The position numbers were made by a program, and so were the translations under genes. A model generated the notes under the pieces. It worked only from the letters and a program-made list of their open reading frames with translations. It did no database searches and was not told the DNA's origin. A DNA stretch of 64,000 bases from Halanaerobium praevalens DSM 2228. Its GTDB lineage: Bacteria > Bacillota > Halanaerobiia > Halanaerobiales > Halanaerobiaceae. Location: the NCBI RefSeq assembly GCF_000165465.1, contig NC_017455.1:620001-684000 (forward strand), given 5' to 3'. Below are positions 19,878 to 24,680 of the stretch, in pieces. The first letter of the stretch is position 1, and each line of letters starts with the position of its first letter.

Positions 19878-19937
19878 TTAATTAAAATGATTATTTTAAC
19901 TCTTTATTTCCAAAAAAAATAATTGAGGTGGAAAAAA

Positions 19938-20720
19938 ATGATAAGTGCACTATGGACTTCAGCAACTGGCATGAATTCACAACAGACAAATATTGATGTA
20001 ATTTCTAATAACTTGGCTAATGTTAATACAAGTGGTTTTAAAAAATCAAAAATAAATTTTGCAGATTTAATTTATACCCAGATGAGACAACCAGGTACTC
20101 CTAATGCTCAGGGGGCAGAAGTACCTACTGGGATTGAGATTGGACACGGTTCCAAGGTAAATAGTACTCAAAAAATATTTACCCAAGGTAATATTCAAAA
20201 TACAGATAGTCCTTTAGATATGGTAATTGAAGGAGATGGGCTTTTTAGAGTCCAACTGCCAGATGGCAATTTCGCTTATACAAGAGATGGTTCTTTTAAA
20301 CAGGATAGTAATGGTAATGTTGTTACTTCAGATGGTTATCAGCTTGATCCTGGCTTTCAAATTCCACAAGAAGCAACAGAAATTTCAATTACTTCTGATG
20401 GAACCATTAATGCTCTAGTAGATGGTGAAAATCAGCAGTTAGGACAGATTCAGTTATATCGTTTTGCTAATCCAGCTGGACTTTCCAGTGAAGGCCGTAA
20501 TCTCTATTCTGATACAGTAGCATCTGGTCAGGCAATGCAGGGTGTGCCAGGAGAGCAGGGATTTGGTACTGTTACTCAAGGATTTTTAGAAATGTCAAAT
20601 GTTAAAGTAGTAGAAGAAATGGTAAATATGATTGCAGCTCAAAGAGCTTATGAAACTAATTCGAAGTCAATTCAGGCCTCAGATGAGATGCTGCAGACTG
20701 CAAATCAGCTAAAAAGATAA
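19938..20720 (+). CDS. flgG: Flagellar distal rod protein FlgG
   Basis: About 260 aa. The N-terminal motif (LWTSATGMNSQQTNIDVISN, then NLANVNTSGFKKS) and C-terminal motif (NMIAAQRAYETNSKSIQASD) are those of the distal rod. The middle has the FlgG-type GDGLFRVQLPDG and YTRDGSFK segments. The start at 19938 is used because an upstream in-frame TTG (19923) lies in the TTGAGGTGG ribosome site. The protein must cross the peptidoglycan and, here, run up to the P and L rings. Confidence 0.95.
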   Translation: MISALWTSATGMNSQQTNIDVISNNLANVNTSGFKKSKINFADLIYTQMRQPGTPNAQGAEVPTGIEIGHGSKVNSTQKIFTQGNIQNTDSPLDMVIEGDGLFRVQLPDGNFAYTRDGSFKQDSNGNVVTSDGYQLDPGFQIPQEATEISITSDGTINALVDGENQQLGQIQLYRFANPAGLSSEGRNLYSDTVASGQAMQGVPGEQGFGTVTQGFLEMSNVKVVEEMVNMIAAQRAYETNSKSIQASDEMLQTANQLKR

Positions 20721-20760
20721 TTTTTAAGTTAAAATAGGCAGTAGTTAGAGGTGGATTAGT

Positions 20761-21732
20761 TTGAAAAGAATAATTGTGATTTTAACTGTTATGATAGTTT
20801 TAACTTTAAGTTTTAATACTGCTGCTTTTCAGGTTATTATTCCTTCTCAAGTTGAGGTTAGTTCTGAGCAGATAACTTTAGCAGAAATAGCTAAAATTGA
20901 GGCTCCAGAGTTATCTACTTCTGCTTTAGAAAATATAGAAAATTTAGTCTTAAAAGCAGCTCCTAATCCAGGTTATAGTAAGCGTTTAAGTCGGATTTTA
21001 GTTGATTTAAGTATCAAAAATATGGGTTATCAAGCTTCTAATTTTAGTCTTAAAATGCCTAAAACAGTAATTGTAAAACGCAAAAGCACTTTAATTAAGG
21101 CAGAGGAAATATTTGAATTGACTAAATCCTATTTGAAATCTAAATTTAATTTTAAAGATGCTCAAATTATTATTGAAAGTAAATCTCCAGCTAAATCTAT
21201 AAAAATTCCAGCTGGAGATTATGAACTTAAAATAGACGAAAAGCAAAATTTAAGTTTTCCAAACCTAAGTTTAAAATTAGAAATTTGGCAGCATGAAAAT
21301 AAGATCAAAAATATTTTTTATCCTGTAAAAATAAGTTTAAAAACAAAAGTATTAACAGCAAATAAAAAATTGGCTAGAAATTCCAAATTGAAAAAATCTG
21401 ATTTTGAAAGAGAAGAAAAAATTGTTTCTGGTAATTTAGAAAAAATAGTAAGAGATTATGCAGAGATAGATTTTAATAAAGTACAGTTAACTAGAGACCT
21501 AAACCAAGGAGAAGTTTTAAATAAAAGCTATTTAAAAATCCCTTATGTAGTTAAATGGGGGCAAAAGTTAAATTTGAGGGTAAAGGTTAATAATATTAAA
21601 ATTTCTACTTTGGTTAAAGCAAAGGAAAGAGGAAAAATTGGTGATATTATAAAAGTTGAAAACCTTAGAACTGGTTATGATTTTCAAGTTTTAGTTATTT
21701 CGCCAACTGAGGTTAAATTGATCTCTGATTAA
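20761..21732 (+). CDS. flgA: Flagellar P-ring chaperone FlgA
   Basis: 323 aa. An N-terminal signal peptide (about 1-22) leads to a periplasmic protein. The C-terminal third shows the SAF/FlgA chaperone features, with a segment on laying down derived hydroxyls (about 200-265) and a final strand pair ending in GDIIKVENLRTGYDFQVLV. FlgA assists FlgI polymerisation into the P ring. The start is TTG at 20761 with GAGGTGG 6 nt upstream. It is longer than enteric FlgA (about 220 aa). Confidence 0.87.
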   Translation: MKRIIVILTVMIVLTLSFNTAAFQVIIPSQVEVSSEQITLAEIAKIEAPELSTSALENIENLVLKAAPNPGYSKRLSRILVDLSIKNMGYQASNFSLKMPKTVIVKRKSTLIKAEEIFELTKSYLKSKFNFKDAQIIIESKSPAKSIKIPAGDYELKIDEKQNLSFPNLSLKLEIWQHENKIKNIFYPVKISLKTKVLTANKKLARNSKLKKSDFEREEKIVSGNLEKIVRDYAEIDFNKVQLTRDLNQGEVLNKSYLKIPYVVKWGQKLNLRVKVNNIKISTLVKAKERGKIGDIIKVENLRTGYDFQVLVISPTEVKLISD

Positions 21733-21746
21733 GTGAGGTGTAAAAT

Positions 21747-22331
21747 ATGAATTTTAAAAAAATGAAAATTTTTATTCTATTAGTATTTTTAGTTCTAATC
21801 TTAAGTCCTGTTATAATGGCTACATCACTTTGGAGTGATGAATCACAGGATTTATATCAAGATTATCCAGATTATCATTTGGGGGATATTATAACTGTGA
21901 TGATTGAAGAAAATGCTAGTGCTATTCAAAGTGCTAATTCAGATGCTAGCCAAAGTAGTAATTATAATGCAGCAGAAGGTGGTGGAATTTTAGATTTTAT
22001 ACCATTTTTTGATTTCAGTTATTCAGACTCTGAAACTGCAGATGGAGAAACCCAAAGGAGTGGAACTTTACAGGCTGATATTACTACTGAAATTGTAGGA
22101 TTACAAGAAAATGGTAACCTTAAAATTAGAGGTAATAAAAGGGTTAAAATCAATGGAGAAATTCAAACTATTGTTTTAGAAGGGGTAATTAGGCCTAAAG
22201 ATATAAATTTTGATAATGAAATTTCTTCTAAAAGAGTTAGTAATGCTAATATAGAGTATGAAGGAGAAGGCGTAGTTGGTGATAAACAAAATTCAGGCTT
22301 GTTAACTAAAGTTTTCAATTTTATTTTTTAG
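21747..22331 (+). CDS. flgH: Flagellar L-ring protein FlgH, apparently not lipidated
   Basis: 194 aa. An N-terminal signal peptide (about 1-25) is followed by the FlgH features YHLGDIITVMIEENASA and, later, ADITTEIVGLQENGNLKIRGNKRV and EGVIRPKDINFDNEISS. It forms the outer-membrane L ring. No Cys occurs anywhere in the protein, so the usual lipobox of FlgH is missing. Length is slightly below the enteric 230 aa. Presence of flgH is strong evidence for an outer membrane in this lineage. Confidence 0.92.
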   Translation: MNFKKMKIFILLVFLVLILSPVIMATSLWSDESQDLYQDYPDYHLGDIITVMIEENASAIQSANSDASQSSNYNAAEGGGILDFIPFFDFSYSDSETADGETQRSGTLQADITTEIVGLQENGNLKIRGNKRVKINGEIQTIVLEGVIRPKDINFDNEISSKRVSNANIEYEGEGVVGDKQNSGLLTKVFNFIF

Positions 22332-22351
22332 TGGATGAAAGAAGGGGTACT

Positions 22352-23482
22352 TTGATTAATTTAAAAAAGAAGATGACTTCAGTTATTATAATTTTTTCGA
22401 TATTTTTATTTAGTTTTGGAAGTTTAGTATTGGCTGCTCAAGATCCAGAAGTTGAAATTGGAAATATTACTCGTTTAAGAGGAGAAAGACCTAATCAACT
22501 CATTGGTTATGGAATTGTAGTTGGTTTAAATGGTAGTGGTGATTCTAATCGGAGCCAGGCAACAGTTCAAAGTGTTGCAAATATGTTACAAAATTTTGGA
22601 GTAAATGTAACTGATAATCAAGTTGCAAGTCAAAATATTGCTGCAGTAATGGTAACTGCAGAATTACCTTCTGTAGCACATAATGGTGATGAATTAAATA
22701 TAACTGTTAGTTCAATTGGAGATGCTGATAGTTTACAAGGAGGAACTTTACTTTTAACTCCACTCCAAGCTCCAAATGGTAAAGTTTATGCCTCAGCTCA
22801 GGGTCCACTTTCTGTTGGGGGCTATAGTGCTGGAGGAGGAGGTAATTCTCAACAACAAAACCATCCTACAGTTGGTAAAATTCCCAATGGTGCTTTAGTA
22901 GAAAGAGAAATTAGCTCTCATTTAGATGCCAAAAATTTAACTTATGTTTTAACAAATCCTAGTTATAAAACTGCAAGTCAAATAGCTTCTAAAATCAATA
23001 ATAGTTTTGGAACTGGAACTGCTAAAGCTTTAAATAATTCAACTGTTAATATTTCTAAACCTGATAATTTCAGTTATGATATGGTTGATTTTATAGCAGA
23101 AGTTAATAGTTTAAAAGTAAGACCAGCTTTAAAAGCTAGGGTTGTAATTGATGAAAGAACTGGTACTGTAGTCTTTAGTCATAATGTTCATATTTCAACT
23201 GTAGCAGTTGCTCATGGTAATTTATCTGTTAGTATTTCTACTCAAGAAAATGTTTCTCAGCCAAATCCTTTGAGTGAAGGAGAAACAACAACAACTGAAG
23301 ATGTTCAGATTGAGGTTGATGAGGGTCAGGAAGGTAATATGTTAATAGTAAGTCAAGAAAATACAATAGAAGATTTAGTAACAGCCTTAAATGCTATTGG
23401 TGCAACTCCCAGAGATATTATCTCAATTATTCAAAAAATTGATGCTGCTGGTGCCTTACATGCCGACTTAATTATTGAATAG
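22352..23482 (+). CDS. flgI: Flagellar P-ring protein FlgI
   Basis: About 376 aa. A signal peptide (about residues 5-29) precedes the mature protein. Hallmarks are GNITRLRGERPNQLIGYGIV and VGLNGSGDS near the N-terminus and AALHADL-type end (AGALHADLIIE). It forms the P ring in the peptidoglycan layer. A TTG start at 22352 is preferred since AAGGGG lies 5-6 nt upstream; an in-frame GTG at 22331 has no ribosome site and overlaps the end of flgH. Confidence 0.95.
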   Translation: MINLKKKMTSVIIIFSIFLFSFGSLVLAAQDPEVEIGNITRLRGERPNQLIGYGIVVGLNGSGDSNRSQATVQSVANMLQNFGVNVTDNQVASQNIAAVMVTAELPSVAHNGDELNITVSSIGDADSLQGGTLLLTPLQAPNGKVYASAQGPLSVGGYSAGGGGNSQQQNHPTVGKIPNGALVEREISSHLDAKNLTYVLTNPSYKTASQIASKINNSFGTGTAKALNNSTVNISKPDNFSYDMVDFIAEVNSLKVRPALKARVVIDERTGTVVFSHNVHISTVAVAHGNLSVSISTQENVSQPNPLSEGETTTTEDVQIEVDEGQEGNMLIVSQENTIEDLVTALNAIGATPRDIISIIQKIDAAGALHADLIIE

Positions 23483-23523
23483 CTTTAATTTGGAAAACTA
23501 GTTAAAAAAGAAGGTGTTTAATT

Positions 23524-23847
23524 TTGAAAATTAATAATAATTATCATCAAATGGCTCAATATCAATTAAATAATCAAAAAGATTTAGCAGCTCAAGCCAA
23601 ACTGCAAAAAAATTCAAATTCAGAAGAAAAATTAGAAAAAGTAGCTGAAGAATTTAGTTCAATCTTTATAGAAAAAATGTTTGCTTCTATGAAAAAAACT
23701 TTGGCAGATGATAAGATGGTTGATGGTGGTTATGCCGAAGATGTATTTTCTGATATGTTATATAAAGAATATAGTCAAATGGCAGGTCAGCAGGGAGTTT
23801 TAGCAGAATTAAATCAAGCTTTAGTACAACAACTAAAAGAAAGTTAA
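23524..23847 (+). CDS. flgJ: Rod-binding protein FlgJ, N-terminal domain only
   Basis: 107 aa. The rod-binding domain (about residues 40-105) is visible: VAEEFSSIFIEKMFASMKKT, then GGYAEDVFSDMLYKEYSQ. The muramidase domain of enteric FlgJ (about 200 more residues) is absent, as is usual outside gammaproteobacteria. A TTG start with AAGAAGGTG upstream is used. It is the last gene of the flagellar block; a promoter for the next unit begins 25 nt after its stop. Confidence 0.88.
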   Translation: MKINNNYHQMAQYQLNNQKDLAAQAKLQKNSNSEEKLEKVAEEFSSIFIEKMFASMKKTLADDKMVDGGYAEDVFSDMLYKEYSQMAGQQGVLAELNQALVQQLKES

Positions 23848-23872
23848 AATCTAATTTAATCTGCTTTATACT

Positions 23873-23901
23873 TTGACAACTGCTTTATTCTGCTGTATAA
23901 T
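23873..23901 (+). promoter_or_regulatory. Sigma-A-type promoter of trpP
   Basis: TTGACA (23873-23878) and TATAAT (23896-23901) separated by 17 nt, a perfect consensus. The expected start of transcription is about 23908, giving a leader of about 85 nt. Confidence 0.85.
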
Positions 23902-23916
23902 TATTAATAATTAGAA

Positions 23917-23936
23917 AAGCTAATAGAGATTAGCTT
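23917..23936 (+). promoter_or_regulatory. 5' stem-loop of the trpP leader
   Basis: 8-bp stem AAGCTAAT/ATTAGCTT with a 4-nt AGAG loop, lying about 10 nt after the predicted transcription start. In B. subtilis trp leaders a 5' stem-loop next to the triplet repeats helps TRAP bind; this hairpin has the same place. That role is an inference. Confidence 0.5.
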
Positions 23937-23942
23937 AAAAAT

Positions 23943-24001
23943 TAGTTGAGATGAGAGATAGTAAAAATTAAAAAGGAGAGATGAGTTGAGATGAGAATTA
24001 G
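23943..24001 (+). promoter_or_regulatory. Probable TRAP binding site spanning the trpP ribosome site and start
   Basis: Nine (G/T)AG triplets: TAG 23943, GAG 23948, GAG 23953, TAG 23959, then after a 16-nt gap GAG 23978, 23983, 23988, 23993 and TAG 23999. Within each cluster they are spaced by 2-3 nt. The second cluster covers the region between the AAGGAG ribosome site and the first codons. This is the arrangement by which tryptophan-bound TRAP (MtrB) blocks trpP translation in B. subtilis. No mtrB gene is in the window. Confidence 0.65.
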
Positions 24002-24524
24002 TACAAAAGATTTAGCACAGGCAGCTTTGTTGGTAGCGGTAGGATTTATTTTACATGCTTTTTTTCCTCCAATTGTGATGGGGATGAAGCCTGATTTTGC
24101 TTTAGCGATGATGTTTATCTTATTAATAGTTAAACATGACTTTAAATTGGGCTTTTTAGTAGCTATTTCTACTGGTATTTTTACTGCTCTAACAACAGGA
24201 TTTCCAGGAGGACAGGTTGCAAATATAGTAGATAAGATATTTACTTTTATAATTATTTATCCTTTGATTCCTGTTATTACAAAACTACCTTCAGCTAAAT
24301 TAGCTACCGGAATTATTACTGTCTTGGGTACAATGTTAAGTGGGTCAATTTTTCTCGCTACTGCTTCGCTTTTAGTTGGTTTACCTGGGCCATTTGTAGT
24401 TTTATTTTCTACAGTTGTAATTCCAGCAGCAGTAGTTAATACAATTACTTCTGTAATGGTTTTTAGTATAGTTAATTTCGCACTGGATGTTGAAGTCCAG
24501 GGAGTTGAAAATGAAGTTCTTTAG
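23991..24524 (+). CDS. trpP: Tryptophan transporter TrpP (YhaG-like, ECF S-component fold)
   Basis: 177 aa, about six membrane helices. The N-terminal part (KDLAQAALLVAVGFILHAFF, then MGMKPDFALAMMFILL) and the middle (ALTTGFPGGQVANIVDK) agree with the TrpP family of Gram-positive bacteria. The TRAP-like triplets at its start support a tryptophan-related role. The ATG at 23991 has AAGGAG upstream. It is monocistronic, with its own promoter and a strong terminator. Confidence 0.85.
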   Translation: MRISTKDLAQAALLVAVGFILHAFFPPIVMGMKPDFALAMMFILLIVKHDFKLGFLVAISTGIFTALTTGFPGGQVANIVDKIFTFIIIYPLIPVITKLPSAKLATGIITVLGTMLSGSIFLATASLLVGLPGPFVVLFSTVVIPAAVVNTITSVMVFSIVNFALDVEVQGVENEVL

Positions 24525-24539
24525 TTAAAAAATTATATG

Positions 24540-24577
24540 GGCCTCCCCTTATAGATTGGGAGGCCATTTTGTTTTTT
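24540..24577 (+). terminator. Intrinsic terminator after trpP
   Basis: Stem GGCCTCCC/GGGAGGCC with a 10-nt loop, then ATTTTG and a run of seven T. Confidence 0.95.
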
Positions 24578-24612
24578 TATTTAAAACAATAAATATTTTT
24601 TTACAAAATAAG

Positions 24613-24641
24613 TTGCACTCTCAACTATTTTTTGTTATAAT
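24613..24641 (+). promoter_or_regulatory. Promoter of the marR-RND operon
   Basis: TTGCAC (24613-24618), 17-nt spacer, TATAAT (24636-24641). An imperfect inverted repeat (ACTCTCAAC at 24617-24625 and GTTAGAGT at 24650-24657) brackets the -10 box and could be the autoregulatory site of the MarR protein. Confidence 0.75.
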
Positions 24642-24680
24642 TTTATAAAGTTAGAGTACAAGTAAAAATGAGGTGTAATT

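Follow-up and report, generated by a model that had tools for sequence, protein, structure and literature searches.

A split run of (G/U)AG triplets over the trpP start of Halanaerobium praevalens as a probable TRAP-binding site in a genome without trpE, trpC and trpB

In Bacillus subtilis the tryptophan transporter gene trpP (yhaG) is under TRAP control (Sarsero et al. 2000 and Yakhnin et al. 2004, as cited in PMC11255114), TRAP being a ring-shaped protein that senses tryptophan, and direct blocking of the ribosome by Trp-loaded TRAP has been described there (PMC11255114, PMC13170310). A 64-kb stretch of the genome of the salt-lake bacterium Halanaerobium praevalens (the window) contains a trpP gene in whose leader, ribosome site and start codon an earlier note had counted nine (G/U)AG triplets with 2–3 nt spacers, placed behind a 5′ stem-loop. 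This raises the question of whether TRAP represses trpP in this organism as well and, if it does, how a site divided into four and five triplets is occupied.

Both the count and the coordinates of the triplets proved correct (Table 1), and the stem-loop is an 8-bp hairpin, the sole helix in the centroid fold of a leader that as a whole is weak as structure (z = –1.2). Of the 9–11 (G/U)AG triplets with 2–3 nt spacers by which a TRAP site is recognised the leader has nine, but with one 16-nt gap. Transcription probably starts near 23908, giving a leader of ∼83 nt, and the layout of the promoter recurs in most relatives within the genus. Block 2 overlaps the end of the Shine-Dalgarno sequence, which finishes in its first triplet, as well as the start codon, whose G is shared with its fourth triplet. 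A scan of positions 23800–24650 found no terminator-like site between the promoter and the trpP start codon, and a search of the window with Rfam returned tmRNA as the sole match. The arrangement is thus that of translational repression of trpP, with a site overlapping the Shine-Dalgarno sequence and the start of the TrpP gene in a leader without a terminator, and no terminator/antiterminator pair of the kind that defines a transcription attenuator lies 3′ of the triplets. An otherwise conserved upstream mini-ORF in block 2 (ATG-AGT-TGA) is lost in two relatives (G014 and G020) and was regarded as incidental to the triplets. Elsewhere in the window, positions 19923–23847 hold flgG-, flgA-, flgH-, flgI- and flgJ-like flagellar ORFs, named mostly by eye; H. 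praevalens is described as non-motile (PMC3156398).

Table 1. Features of the trpP leader and gene (positions in the window)
Feature	Position	Strand	Description	Basis
Promoter, sigma-70/A-type	23873..23901	+	TTGACA-17-TATAAT	12/12 consensus matches
5′ stem-loop	23917..23936	+	AAGCUAAU-AGAG-AUUAGCUU	near inferred transcription start; centroid-fold helix
TRAP site block 1 (predicted)	23943..23961	+	UAG-GAG-GAG-UAG, spacers 2,2,3; UAG 23943, GAG 23948, GAG 23953, UAG 23959	sequence; conserved with G/U swaps
Inter-block spacer	23962..23977	+	16 nt, A-rich, contains most of Shine-Dalgarno	
Shine-Dalgarno of trpP	23973..23978	+	AAGGAG	sequence
TRAP site block 2 (predicted)	23978..24001	+	GAG-GAG-GAG-GAG-UAG, spacers 2,2,2,3; GAG 23978, 23983, 23988, 23993; UAG 23999–24001	
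trpP, tryptophan transporter	23991..24524	+	177 aa; start codon ATG 23991–23993	Pfam PF17099 TrpP, E 2.5e-45, 154.8 bits

Such an arrangement is rarely reached by chance. Blocks 1 and 2 are the sole pair of such triplet chains in the window, the opposite strand of which has no chain of four or more triplets, and in 200 simulated 64-kb sequences (third-order Markov) there was no case of two chains, each of at least four triplets, lying within 60 nt and adding up to nine or more. Across the genome (2,309,262 bp, one contig) a five-triplet pattern has a single match, the trpP leader, and a four-triplet pattern has eight, three of them in that leader. The remaining five lie within or at the edge of other, unrelated genes; a control with the pattern reversed (10 + 11) puts them at the level of chance, and they were rejected as further TRAP targets.

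If TRAP acts on this leader, its gene should be in the same genome, and the earlier note had named the absence of any mtrB homologue as fatal to its proposal. An intact mtrB is present (G000:C1:1746772-1746975; PF02081, E 1.5e-38, 132 bits against a cut-off of 21.3), beside what is presumably a phosphofructokinase-like gene. Its product matches the NCBIfam equivalog NF009724 above the family threshold (132 against 117 bits) and shares ∼56% identity with an MtrB sequence from the PDB. The region contacting RNA and tryptophan is intact, with EKLDKGE, QFTE and SAMKIRG conserved, which we take to include the Lys/Lys/Arg RNA contacts and the Trp-pocket residues of TRAP. The search for an anti-TRAP gave one PF15777 match, near the cut-off and inside a 378-codon frame; as the same model also matches E. 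coli it was rejected, and it is probably a DnaJ-type zinc motif. Genome searches found neither trpE nor trpC (indole-glycerol-phosphate synthase) in H. praevalens, and for trpB only weak matches of other PLP enzymes. With these three genes missing from a 99.99%-complete genome, H. praevalens should depend on tryptophan from outside.

To what extent the site is kept can be seen in the 38 genomes of the order, 32 of which have mtrB and 25 TrpP. In an alignment of 16 Halanaerobiaceae leaders with seven triplets in common, 220 of the 224 cells at positions 2 and 3 hold the expected A and G, and 110 of the 112 at position 1 hold G or U, between which this position alternates; G and U are the letters that TRAP reads there. 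These relatives are not independent samples, the leaders of the genus being closely related. The earlier note had regarded the division into four and five as unusual and perhaps the mark of one ring bound across a looped RNA or of a lower-affinity site, either of which may still apply; the division is, however, a conserved trait of the Halanaerobiaceae and no isolated weak site, since 15 of the 17 leaders have a gap of 15–17 nt, the exceptions being G020 (13) and G022 (21). The 5′ helix is also found in G012, G014–G017 and G019 and not clearly in G011 or G013. Some leaders have an additional, correctly spaced UAG where six nucleotides (ATTAGT) are inserted in frame behind the start codon. Tandem trpP copies (G014, G015, G018 and G020) each have their own site, and for the second copy in G014, G015 and G020 both blocks lie within the trpP–trpP junction. 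Elsewhere in the order the layout varies: part of the triplets lies downstream of the start codon in family f3 (G002–G005), and G001 has a single, nearly continuous run.

The prediction that triplets should persist in relatives keeping trpP was borne out in nearly all that also keep mtrB, and the site is absent where mtrB is absent. The leaders of G007, a weak case, and of the divergent TrpP paralogue in G006, which has no clear site and is not convincing, do not exceed shuffles, and that of G008 does so on its longest run only (P about 0.04). Three single loci deserve mention. In one relative (G010:C2, L023) block 2 is intact before trpP, and about 110 nt of other sequence set it apart from the TAGctGAGatTAG further upstream, which makes this leader a natural test of the need for block 1. 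In another (G008:C32, minus strand, L010) the trpP leader consists of an upstream triplet cluster, a terminator-like CCGUAAC-GUUACGG hairpin, a U run and block 2 at the start, making attenuation plus a translation block possible there. The mtrB of G023 (L060) encodes KIQG in place of the otherwise conserved KIRG, so that an arginine which probably contacts RNA is replaced.

The mtrB-negative relatives, whose trpP leaders lack triplet runs and have a T-box instead, provide a natural comparison. In family f7 mtrB is missing from all five genomes (three of the five ≤80% complete), and all three of its trpP genes (G033, G036 and G037, that of G036 broken by stops) lie behind a T-box, with scores of 118.5, 105.9 and 108.9 against a gathering threshold of 93 and a specifier that reads, in an alignment judged by eye, as UGG, the Trp codon. 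Genomes with mtrB have 22 trpP loci, and no T-box was found at any of them; Fisher's test on this 22/3 table gives P about 0.0004, although the f7 genomes are one clade and hence one event. The H. praevalens genome has six T-boxes, none of which appears, again by eye, to have a UGG specifier.

We then weighed other explanations of the leader. The triplets could simply reflect a ribosome-binding region rich in purines together with shared ancestry, with no TRAP bound at all: the needs of the Shine-Dalgarno sequence partly favour GAG close to a start codon, block 2 overlaps the Shine-Dalgarno sequence and the start, and the genus leaders have a recent history in common. However, block 1 lies upstream of the Shine-Dalgarno sequence, and the first letter of its triplets varies between G and U against a constant A and G; both the exchange of runs for a T-box in mtrB-negative relatives and the failure of all 200 simulated sequences to match also speak against a by-product, which we consider very improbable. 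That the leader instead works by transcription attenuation is likewise very improbable, since no terminator-like site occurs from promoter to start codon in the window, even though the trp operon leaders of relatives combine triplets with a terminator and the G008 trpP leader places a hairpin and U run between its triplet cluster and the start.

A closer competitor is that TRAP binds block 2 only, block 1 and the stem-loop serving as a separate loading site or as the site of a second ring. This is a sub-variant of the TRAP explanation, and its likelihood overlaps that of the main one. Block 2 by itself covers the start, and it is perfect behind the insertion in G010, but a gap held to 15–17 nt in nearly all Halanaerobiaceae leaders would be expected if the ring is shared, and we therefore regard binding to block 2 only as possible though rather unlikely.

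The explanation that we favour, and hold to be very probable on the sequence evidence, is that the trpP leader is a TRAP-binding site repressing trpP translation. From what can be read directly (the triplets, the promoter, the start region, the intact TRAP gene and conservation) we infer TRAP binding, its dependence on tryptophan, repression and a one-ring geometry. In this model trpP would be transcribed from its own promoter; when tryptophan is plentiful, Trp-loaded TRAP would bind the nine triplets and cover the Shine-Dalgarno sequence and start codon, blocking initiation by the ribosome, and when tryptophan is scarce TRAP would be released and TrpP made. The lack of a terminator in the leader points to translation control rather than attenuation. 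For such a block a single overlapping repeat is said to be enough (PMC4347634).

By arithmetic only, we infer that one ring takes both blocks. With four plus five triplets bound, an 11-mer would have two unfilled subunits and a 12-mer three, spanning 12–15 nt or 17–21 nt, respectively, and the observed gap is mostly 15–17 nt. Our fuller proposal, that the split Halanaerobiaceae site is bridged by one ring with the A-rich Shine-Dalgarno gap over two or three unfilled subunits, and that TRAP in H. praevalens has outlived the trp operon mainly as an import switch, is a tentative one in which we have somewhat less than even confidence.

The earlier note had also suggested looking for triplet runs before trp biosynthetic genes, which could not succeed in H. 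praevalens, where these genes are gone, and did so in its relatives. Their trp operon leaders have long triplet runs followed by hairpin and U-run terminators (e.g. G011, G008, G002, G029 and G031), and when folded with the triplets held open most retain the terminator hairpin, a simple test without a control that is suggestive. Several of the f4 genomes have trp genes just downstream of mtrB. At one locus (G024:C5:92000-101000, L108) mtrB adjoins a downstream trpB, and the interval separating the two holds triplets, a terminator-like hairpin and another triplet run that covers the trpB start. The relative G021, in which TRAP is present but no trpB is clearly so, offers a candidate for a further TRAP target: a series of eight (G/U)AG triplets, spaced by 2–3 nt, and a possible terminator (G021:C5:13500-17400, minus strand, L255) precede the gene of a TIGR04076/ferredoxin-type protein and that of an aldehyde ferredoxin oxidoreductase. 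In G005 about eight spaced (G/U)AG triplets extend across the start codon of each of two paralogous genes (G005:C1:1623700-1627000 and 2448000-2451800, L250 and L251), which lack a Pfam match and precede a tautomerase gene.

How does this compare with known systems? B. subtilis and H. praevalens share the TrpP transporter, the (G/U)AG triplets over Shine-Dalgarno and start, and the proposed direct ribosome block. The Bacilli trpP leaders that we sampled have runs of 3–8 triplets over the start, most of them as one run of 4–8 behind a different 5′ hairpin, whereas the H. praevalens site comprises two blocks (4 + 5) with a conserved 15–17 nt gap and has fewer contiguous triplets than the well-characterised B. 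subtilis trp-leader sites. Unlike B. subtilis, the host has no trp biosynthetic genes and no anti-TRAP was found. Attenuation of B. subtilis trpEDCFBA uses the same protein and triplet code, and such leaders precede trp operons in Halanaerobiales relatives, but H. praevalens trpP has no terminator and its genome no trp operon. The Trp T-box leaders, in contrast to TRAP, read tRNA charging, yet control the same gene in f7 of the same order. TRAP outside the Bacilli, to which the earlier note had drawn attention, turned out to be common and not exceptional, a scan of species genomes giving at least 567 confirmed TRAP relatives among the matches listed, many in Clostridia-type lineages. A search of the literature limited to an open-access library found no account of TRAP sites in Halanaerobiales, and an earlier description may exist. 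The mechanism is probably the one known from Bacillus, in a group far removed from it and with a changed site layout.

Together these data place probable TRAP control of tryptophan import in an order of anaerobic halophiles distant from Bacillus, in which a natural exchange of TRAP for a T-box has occurred on one gene, trpP, and in which the split site could test how much of the TRAP ring must be filled. In H. praevalens itself TRAP has persisted beyond the trp operon, its classic target: with trpE, trpC and trpB missing here, and the trp operons of relatives preceded by triplet-plus-terminator leaders, TRAP seems to have been retained mainly to control tryptophan import.
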